This document shows, piece by piece, positions 19,522-22,193 of a DNA stretch of 22,193 nt; the first letter of the stretch is position 1, and each line of letters opens with the position of its first letter. The translations under genes were made by a program, and so were the position numbers. A model generated the notes under the pieces. It was not told the DNA's origin, did not search any database, and was given only the letters and a program-made list of their open reading frames with translations. The stretch spans positions 1-22,193 of the forward strand of contig NW_014578228.1 of assembly GCF_000485595.1 (NCBI RefSeq), given 5' to 3'. The stretch is from Priapulus caudatus (lineage: Eukaryota; Priapulida; Priapulimorpha; Priapulimorphida; Priapulidae).

Positions 19522-20946
19522 CTCATGTTACCGACGGGAAAGGTCGCCTCGGCAACGATCGTCTCAAACAGCTGTTTGATGCGGAAGGCAAGCGACTCGA
19601 GTAACGAGCGAACCATGTGAGCCTTCGTCGTGTGCGAGGAGAGACCGAGGAAACCCGCGCACGCCTGCGCATCGTTGACGGGAGCCTGCAGGCGACGAGA
19701 GACAGAAGCTTAACATTGATACAGTAAACGTAATAATTAGTATAACGTCTCACACGTCGCCACAAGTTTTGCATCAAGTCTCACTCCTGGTGCACTAGTG
19801 CTCAGATTACTCTACGTGTGTATACATATCATACATTGTTCTGTAATGTGAATAATTAGTAATAAATATTACATTATCGTGTTTTTATATAATCACACTA
19901 CACTACCAATAGATAACACTAACTGGGTAAGGTGAGGTTACACTGAGATGTTCACCTGGAGACCACTGAAGGAAGGAATGAAGAACACACCGTTGGAATC
20001 TTTCACAGACTCCGCGATCGCAGAGCTCTCCCGCGCTTCCGCAAACAGTCCTGAAGCGCGAAGCCATAACTACACATTAGCATCCCTCATCCTCGCTATC
20101 AGCATCCTGCCTCCCGCTCGCAGGAACACGGGTCATGCAGAGTTCAGCAATCACGTAAAACGCTTCAACATAGTCGGTCGATTTCCACACCAAATCGCCA
20201 ACTCTGTAAAACTTGTCGCCGAAAATCGAGGAACGTTGTTAAAATCGCGGATAGCGACAGCTTCATGCAGCAATCGATCAGCGCCCCCTAGAGGCGTTAT
20301 AGTTTTCATGAGGTTTACGGCATACTGCGACAGTCTAAGCTGTAGCTAGACTGACGCTACTCACCGATGTCCTGAGCCCAGGAGATGGCTGTTCCCGTGT
20401 CTGCTGACCCTCCCTCTGCTAAATACACAACCTCATCCTCCATCTTCCAACCAACGAGAGGATAGAGGCCTCAATTAAAAACACGTCATTAGTGAACAGG
20501 TGATGAACAACACACAGTGAATTAACAGATCATTAGAGAACACGTTGTCATTAAACACATCGGTACAGAAAACACGTGGTTTATTTACAGGTGACATGGA
20601 AACACATTGTTAATGAACAAAAGCGTGATAGAAAATGCAGTGAATTAACACATTATGCCAATGTGCTCGTTAGCTGCGCTCACCTGCTCGTTAGCTGTGC
20701 TTACCTGCTCGTTAGCTGCGCTCACCTGCTCGTTAACGTGGTCACCTGCGTCGTTAACGCTGTGCTTACCTCCGCCTCGTTGAGCGTGTGGTCAATCCTG
20801 CTCGTTTGCTGTGCTTACCTGCGACGAGACGTGCGTGAGTTGCTGCCGGTGTTGATGTCTATGAAGGTTCCGGTGCCCATCGTACATTTCACGTCACCCA
20901 CCGCGAAGCAGCATTCTCCAAACATGGCTGCCTGCTGGTCCCCTAC
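19522..20946 (-). CDS. GK5: glycerol kinase 5, four internal exons
   Basis: GT-AG exons at 20946-20819, 20469-20365, 20050-19956 and 19685-19522. They encode, in order, [12 protein letters not shown] (the Asp of GDQQ is the catalytic base in FGGY kinases) with [32 protein letters not shown] with [26 protein letters not shown] with [12 protein letters not shown]; and [17 protein letters not shown], then [19 protein letters not shown]. This is the C-terminal half of the FGGY fold. Glycerol kinases phosphorylate glycerol with ATP in the cytosol; the wording GLYPLVGWK and DTGTAI matches GK5 rather than GK. Phases fit at three places but not from the first exon into the second, where one extra base seems present near 20825. 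Upstream exons would lie past 22193; the next downstream exon (VDGG region) is not in the window. Confidence 0.88.
20050..20650. other. GK5 introns; degenerate AACACGT repeats at 20480-20600
   Basis: Between the exons 20050-20364 shows no gene. From 20480 to 20600 a loose motif (ATTAGTGAACA, GAGAACACGTTGTCATTAAACAC, AGAAAACACGTGG) recurs with variable spacing and resembles a decayed minisatellite. Confidence 0.4.
20664..20818 (-). repeat. 21-bp minisatellite of splice-donor units
   Basis: Read on the minus strand from the exon edge, units are GTAAGCACAGCAAACGAGCAG, a divergent 28-bp unit, a 24-bp unit, a 20-bp unit and three further 21-bp units of the form GTRAGCRCAGCTAACGAGCA. All but the second begin with GTRAG or GTGAC right after CAG or GAG, so each carries a plausible 5' splice site. 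The first unit is the donor actually used by the GK5 exon. Confidence 0.85.
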
Positions 20947-22193
20947 CTGTAGGGAGGGAGGAGAGAGTGAGTGAGGGACAAATACTGCCTGCAGGGAGGA
21001 CAAAGGGAGGTGAGAAGTGAGGAGGGAACGAATACTCGCCTGCAGGGAGGACCAGGAGGGAGTGGAGGAAGGGACTAGAGATACGGGTGCCTGCAGGGAG
21101 GACAGGAGGGAGGTGAGAGTGATGGAGGGACAGATATACGCTGCCAAGGGAGGACAGGAGTGGAGGTGACGAGCGAGGAGGGACAGATACTACCTGCAGG
21201 GAGGACAGGGGGGAGGTTGAGAGTGAGGAGGGACAGAATACTATACGCTGTAGGGAGGACAGGAGGGAGTGAGAAGTGAGTGAGGGACAGAATAACTGGC
21301 CTGCAGGGAGGACAGGAGGAGGGTGAGAAGTGAGGCAGGGACCAGCATGATACCTGGCTGCAGGGAGGACAGAGGGAGGTGCGAGGAGGAGGGACAGAAG
21401 TACTGCCTGCAAGCGGAGGACAGGAAGGGAGGGGAAGAGTGAGGAGAGGGACAGAATAACTAACCTGCAGGGAGGGACAGGAGGGAGGTGAGAGTTGAGG
21501 AGGGCAAACGAATACTGCCCTGCGCAGGGAGGCACAGGAGGAGGCTGAGAGTGAGGAGGACAGAATACTGCCTTTGGGTTGGACAGCAGGCAGGGAAGGG
21601 AGCAGTGAGGAAGGGACAGTAAATACTACCTGGCAAGGGAGGAACAGGGAGGGAGGTAGAGAGTGAGGAGGGACAGAAGATACTGCCTGTAGGGAGGACA
21701 GGAGGAGTTGAGAGTGAGGAGGGACAAGAATACTGCCTGCAGGAGGACAGGGAGGGAGGCGTCGAGAGTGAGGAAGGGACATGAATACTGCCTGCAGGGA
21801 GACAGAGACGGGAGGTGAGAGTGAGGAGGCGACAGAATACTGCCTGCATGGGAGGGACAAGGAGGGAGGTGAGACGTGAGGAGGTGACAGAATAACTACC
21901 TGCCAGGGCAGGAATCAGGAGGGGAGTTGAGAGTGAGAGAGACAGGAATACTGCCTGCAGGGAAAGGAACAGGAGGGAGGCTGAGAGTGAGGAGGGGACA
22001 GAATACTGCCTGCAGGAGGACTAGGAGGAGAGGGTGAGTGAAGGAGGGGATCAGAATACTACCTGGCAGTGAGGAGGGAGGTGAGAGTGAAGGAAGGGAC
22101 AGATACTACGCTCTAGGAAGGACAAGGAGAGGAGGTGAGAGTGAGGAGGGAACAAGAATACTGCCTGCAAGGGAGGACAGTGAAGGAGTGAGA
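20947..22193 (-). repeat. 50-bp minisatellite of splice-acceptor units, about 25 copies
   Basis: The plus-strand unit is GCCTGCAGGGAGGACAGGAG followed by GGAGGTGAGAGTGAGGAGGG and ACAGAATACT. On the minus strand every unit is a long pyrimidine tract ending CCCTGCAG|G, a textbook 3' splice site. The unit touching the exon (CCTCCCTACAG at 20947-20957) is the acceptor used. Copies show many single-base indels. The array continues past the window edge. The long Pro/Ser/Leu-rich frames here are by-products. Confidence 0.92.

Follow-up and report, generated by a model that had tools for sequence, protein, structure and literature searches.

The question raised by this locus is how a coding exon came to lie between two minisatellites that repeat its own splice sites, and whether such arrays reflect a process tied to exon borders. 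The window, the whole stretch of 22,193 nucleotides of Priapulus caudatus DNA that was analysed, is the beginning of a contig of 45,853 bases (C1166). The initial annotation described an exon flanked by about seven copies of its donor on one side and about 25 copies of its acceptor on the other, and TRF, dinucleotide shuffles and splice-site scores confirmed this arrangement (Table 1).

The GK5 exon and its splice-site arrays

Searches with tblastn showed that residues 276-309 of the P. caudatus GK5 protein are 100% identical to the exon, and the joined exons of the contig, with this exon included in full, agree with this protein at 283/284 compared residues. The other proteins among the 120 listed of 438 are at 43-48%. 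In the assembly, for which the genome-wide searches covered 385,217,808 bases in 2952 contigs, a single place matches the exon. At the acceptor edge (...AAM/VGDQQ, the slash marking the junction), the Priapulus protein agrees with the exon-proximal acceptor being in use. The last bases of the exon are one base out of frame, reading TSRGGLYPL vs. TSRR plus 2 nt in the protein, and thus the exact donor edge is uncertain.

Table 1. Exons and splice-site arrays of the GK5 locus (window positions unless stated)
Feature	Position	Strand	Description	Basis
Acceptor array	20947..22193	-	~25 units of 50 bp	TRF, acceptor scores, consensus alignment
GK5 coding exon	20819..20946	-	Ends ...GSNSRTSR; arrays on both sides	tblastn
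Donor array	20664..20818	-	~7 units of 21 bp	TRF, donor scores
Next GK5 exon	20365..20469	-	Junction scores 18 and 11; array-free borders	tblastn
GK5 exon	19956..20050	-	Junctions scored; array-free	tblastn
GK5 exon	19522..19685	-	Junctions scored; array-free	tblastn
GK5 exon	36022-36156 (contig C1166, outside the window)		Upstream neighbour, ends ...KVAAM at the junction; 37-bp donor array	

The donor array has the gene-sense consensus unit GTRAGCRCAGCTAACGAGCAG (by eye) and was delimited by TRF at 20664-20822, with 7.1 copies and a score of 158 vs. a best score of 44 among 200 dinucleotide shuffles. The GK5 donor lies in the exon-proximal 21-bp unit, with its GT at 20818-20817, and further donors occur at 20769, 20745, 20725, 20704 and 20683. 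The six donors reach 10-13 of 14 in a simple score read in the gene sense, with 13 for the functional one. About seven exon bases resemble the unit, with a noisy edge (by eye).

The acceptor array, with the gene-sense consensus unit GYAGTATTCTGTCCCTCCTCACTCTCACCTCCCTCCTGTCCTCCCTGCAG, was placed by TRF at 20953-22193 (period 54, 23.3 copies), and its score of 1084 compares with a best of 93 among 200 dinucleotide shuffles. The GK5 acceptor belongs to the exon-proximal unit. Scoring of the array gave 25 AGs at 7.5 or more in the simple score, most of them at unit ends and few elsewhere; the exon's own AG scores highest at 9.5 and the others range from 7.5 to 9.0. The unit holds at most four exon bases (GTAG), and the case for border spanning is therefore weak for this array. 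At the end of the window the array meets an assembly gap (contig 22194-29683), which is followed by ~4 kb of other sequence and then by a further 1.8 kb of the array (contig 33765-35528), in the same orientation and within the same intron. A search with the doubled unit returned at least 35 genome matches, a lower bound since very common words were skipped and two candidates were scored, and every listed match falls in these two pieces. No match to the 50-bp unit is reported from any other contig, and the possibility that a dispersed satellite landed at the exon is unsupported. Together, TRF, the site scores and the doubled-unit matches uphold the reading that the arrays are built from the exon's own splice sites.

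A third array, with a 37-bp unit in 3.6 copies, lies at the donor of the upstream exon. Here 14 of the 17 terminal exon bases are found again in each of three units. The lengths of both the 37-bp and the 50-bp unit shift the reading frame. Arrays are thus present at 3 of the 16 GK5 junctions examined (P = 0.04 at a base rate of 5% and 0.19 at 9.6%), in a locus that was picked for its arrays. For five of these junctions, all array-free, the position (37697, 36967, 20367, 38257 and 20051) was placed by eye ~1-6 bases off. An older array, now degenerate, at the acceptor of the next exon (20469) was also considered; TRF detects none in the rest of the intron.

Sequence noise and assembly

When the acceptor array was aligned to the cyclic 50-bp consensus, the rates per unit base for insertions, deletions and substitutions were 9.3%, 2.4% and 3.2% in the left piece and 6.3%, 3.5% and 4.8% in the right piece. 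The variation from unit to unit is insertion-rich and mostly private to single units. The irregular unit lengths are read as mostly sequencing error of what appear to be uncorrected long reads. If uncorrected single-molecule reads cover near-identical true units, the growth of the array would be recent. GK5 residues 1-87 match the strand opposite to that of the remaining gene, in frame-shifted pieces at 42364-43033 of the contig; this reversal probably reflects an erroneous join made from raw reads. The reversed residues and the frame error at the exon end together indicate local errors in the contig, and the numbers of units in these arrays are unreliable.

The same features raise the possibility that the repeats were made or inflated by poor filling of gaps with long reads. 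Insertion-rich private variation in both 50-bp pieces, a gap adjoining the array, the exon-end frame error and the reversed N-terminal residues would fit such an artefact. However, both pieces yield the same 50-base consensus (refined from one seed, so that columns could be lost but not gained) and have a C/T variant at unit position 2 in common, with T in 7/23 and 7/35 units. The 37-bp array and the junction arrays elsewhere in the genome also look regular. An assembly origin of the repeats is accordingly regarded as very improbable.

Splice junctions elsewhere in the genome

Junction arrays recur in the Priapulus genome, and a border-tied process is possible. Flanks were fetched for 8 of 19 listed donor-array loci, L059 to L066. 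The first donor coincides with the end of a heme-peroxidase frame at L059 (Pfam E 6.4e-20) and with the end of an ATRX-like SNF2 frame at L060 (PDB E 1.2e-24), while the open frames at L065 and L066 match no Pfam family. Among the remaining flanks, L061 is ambiguous, L062 lacks a long frame, L063 is still within the array and L064 runs into a gap. Two more exons with arrays belong to P450 and myosin genes. On the minus strand of C744 (L032, 1-300), a P450-like exon (Pfam p450, narrowly missing the cut-off with an E of 8.9e-5) adjoins a donor array with units of roughly 24-35 bp that are GTACGTACCGTCGGTAACATACAG-like and, by eye, resemble the exon's end. The myosin-head exon of L056 (C477:114050-114850, hit 114329-114553) has repeats on both sides as judged by eye, with a two-copy duplication including ~60 exon bases on the acceptor side and about four donor-like copies downstream. 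Another myosin exon (L049, C956:78274) and another P450 exon (L035, C27:13934) each have, by eye, one extra copy of the exon end plus donor, ~90-100 nt into the intron.

The frequency of arrays at splice junctions was surveyed on 77 exon hits, comprising 49 of 96 P450 rows and 28 of 88 myosin rows from 20 and 14 hand-picked regions, respectively. Splice sites were assigned with our own simple score, without transcripts. This left 60 donors and 69 acceptors, after 17 donors and 8 acceptors had been excluded because they scored low or had insufficient flanking sequence. The minus-strand P450 exon of L032 is not one of the hits and does not enter the counts. A tandem copy straddles 3 of the 129 junctions (1/60 donors and 2/69 acceptors), and the same rule applied to nearby intron positions gives 237/2720 (8.7%) for donors and 184/2702 (6.8%) for acceptors. 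For sequence-complex probes the counts are 1/50 donors and 1/45 acceptors, vs. 2.5% and 1.5% of intron positions. When a plain score of 24 served as the threshold, 3/60 donors and 3/69 acceptors were positive, compared with 196/2040 and 185/2019 random noncoding positions and with 1/118 and 1/136 exon-interior probes for donor and acceptor, respectively. At the straddled acceptor on C785 the repeat is short and of the TGCGTTTACG type, and the C224 junction that was positive by the plain score lies in a CT microsatellite. Hence, the P450 and myosin survey of 129 junctions shows no excess of arrays at junctions over nearby intron. A random sample of 20 x 10 kb, which has no exon set and served for motif counts only, consists of N at 108,212 of 200,000 bases; the other 91,788 bases contain 65 tandem repeats with a period of at least 10, few of which contain AGGT[AG].

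A motif test covered the whole genome with three copies of the donor consensus CAGGTRAG in a row, separated by gaps of 8-38. The donor triple gave 955 matches (600 + 355), the one-base change CAGCTRAG gave 96 and a scramble of the same composition, CAGGARTG, gave 140; the reversed motifs, counted as matches and not as loci, gave 9, 7 and 50, respectively. After rows less than 10 kb apart were joined, the first 100 of the 955 donor matches contained 19 loci on C3-C112. The 96 rows of the one-base change form 26 loci, with 7 on C1-C112, and the scramble has 4 loci on C1-C112, a region that is complete for it because the matches listed of the 140 reach C653. The 194 kb of sequence that were fetched contain 18 single donor motifs, 10 of the one-base change and 19 of the scramble, small counts that limit the test. 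Scaled by these motif frequencies, the per-locus donor excess is ~1.5 fold over the one-base change (P = 0.24) and ~5 fold over the scramble (P = 0.0008), with P = 0.005 against the two controls together. The excess of donor triples leaves possible room for a modest border bias.

Such a bias could come from a mutational process that is tied to splice junctions and duplicates donors more than other intron sequence, for example through breaks or slippage at paused polymerase or at R-loops over 5' splice sites. The donor triples outnumber both controls and their own reversal, at least 19 donor loci stand against 4 scramble loci on C1-C112 at an equal frequency of single motifs, and exons with repeats on both sides occur twice, in GK5 and in a myosin gene. 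However, the comparison with the one-base change gives 19 vs. 7 loci from 18 vs. 10 single motifs, the direct survey is without excess, and many CAGGTRAG sites must be real donors (perhaps half, as a rough guess), so that random arrays there would often abut exons. On balance, a junction-tied process is an unlikely source of the arrays. The initial annotation had argued that two unrelated units, each in phase with a junction, speak for a process tied to exon borders and not chance. With 3 straddled junctions in 129 and a locus excess of ~1.5 and ~5 fold, such a process is possible but not demonstrated, and the phase is not separate evidence because any repeat that overlaps a splice site carries the site in every unit. 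The wider proposal, that in Priapulus and perhaps in other minisatellite-rich animals a mutational process preferentially reiterates splice donors (and acceptors), is doubtful and put forward tentatively. If it were true, junction arrays would form a genome-wide class, with dozens to hundreds of members, in a phylum only distantly related to lancelets, and preferential reiteration would keep supplying exons with shifted splice sites and genes with new introns.

Origin, splicing and known junction repeats

Starting from what was directly seen, namely the arrays and their positions, the coding exon, several other such exons and a 50-bp unit without a match elsewhere, the GK5 arrays are probably junction-spanning minisatellites of the mirage type, formed by local tandem duplication in a genome rich in minisatellites, with growth on the coding side stopped by selection. 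In the proposed course of events, each array would be born locally from its own junction when a short stretch reaching across the exon-intron border underwent tandem duplication, and replication slippage or unequal exchange would then extend it. Growth would be free on the intron side and halted on the coding side by selection, which would leave the functional site in the first unit. The spliceosome would most likely keep to the exon-proximal site through exon definition, with the other units acting as tolerated decoys.

It is also conceivable that the arrays are functional, with the extra donors and acceptors buffering splicing or permitting alternative borders. The scores of the other units come close to those of the functional sites (10-13 vs. 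13 for the donors and 7.5-9.0 vs. 9.5 for the acceptors), and the first 21-bp unit as read would add seven extra codons without a stop. However, in the phase of the Priapulus protein, a shift to the next donor through a consensus unit adds GKHS-stop-RA, which would make the use of downstream donors costly, and a step of 37 or 50 bp does not preserve the frame; use of the exon-proximal sites is therefore expected. The agreement of the predicted GK5 protein with the exon-proximal acceptor also stands against a functional role, as do lancelet mirages, which are reported to leave splicing undisturbed (PMC3087553, PMC3902484). We consider a function of the arrays very unlikely and retain local duplication under coding-side selection as the probable origin.

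The precedent in amphioxus cited by the initial annotation is correct: mirages are described in the lancelet genes Adh3, BflGb6 and BflGb9 (globins), TnC and PGBD5 (PMC3087553, PMC3902484). The GK5 arrays have in common with them tandem repeats that span borders, AG or GT signals in many units, an occurrence at either border and varied unit lengths. Exon sequence lies inside the repeat unit of the 37-bp array, whereas it is noisy in the 21-bp and weak in the 50-bp array; splice signals are present in the units (six donors and 25 AGs); and donor and acceptor borders are both affected, in the GK5 arrays and at the myosin exon. The host is different, a priapulid within the Ecdysozoa, amphioxus as a source being ruled out by the GK5 identity, and a single exon with arrays on both sides and about 25 or more acceptor units is unlike the lancelet cases.

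Internal tandem repeats at human exon-intron boundaries, which can change splicing, likewise place repeat arrays at exon borders (PMC2812944). However, that report assigns them to primate segmental duplications, with half of them within coding exons, whereas the GK5 units lie in introns and the exon is matched at a single place in the assembly. Intron gain by tandem duplication of AGGT, with dual-specific splice sites in repeats, is described in a further report (PMC10809524). The GK5 arrays resemble this case in a repeated AG/GT that could be donor or acceptor, dual use being hypothetical here, and differ in that the exon structure fits the GK5 protein of Priapulus.

No paper on priapulid junction arrays was found by title or beginning of abstract, in a search that most subscription journals lie outside, and as far as searched the GK5 arrays are a known kind in a new phylum. 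In the literature found, junction minisatellites are those of lancelets and of some human duplicated genes. Their presence in several unrelated priapulid genes suggests a possible recurrence wherever minisatellites are common. Such arrays are natural tests of site choice by the spliceosome when many sites are nearly equal, and are candidate starting points for intron gain.

The rest of the window contains several other features. At the contig start (2-288), a 79-bp unit is repeated 3.6 times with two AGGTAA motifs per unit; it could be another junction array, with no exon identified. Remains of a hAT transposase (Dimer_Tnp_hAT and DUF4371) are located on the minus strand at 990-1679 and 2923-3363. 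Long inverted repeats at 7679-8114 and 11782-12371, with longest arms of 325 nt that are 91% complementary and 3.8 kb apart, probably mark the two ends of a DNA transposon. On the minus strand at 16294-16536 lies a fragment of an integrase core domain (rve), scoring 24.9 bits vs. a Pfam cut-off of 32.6.
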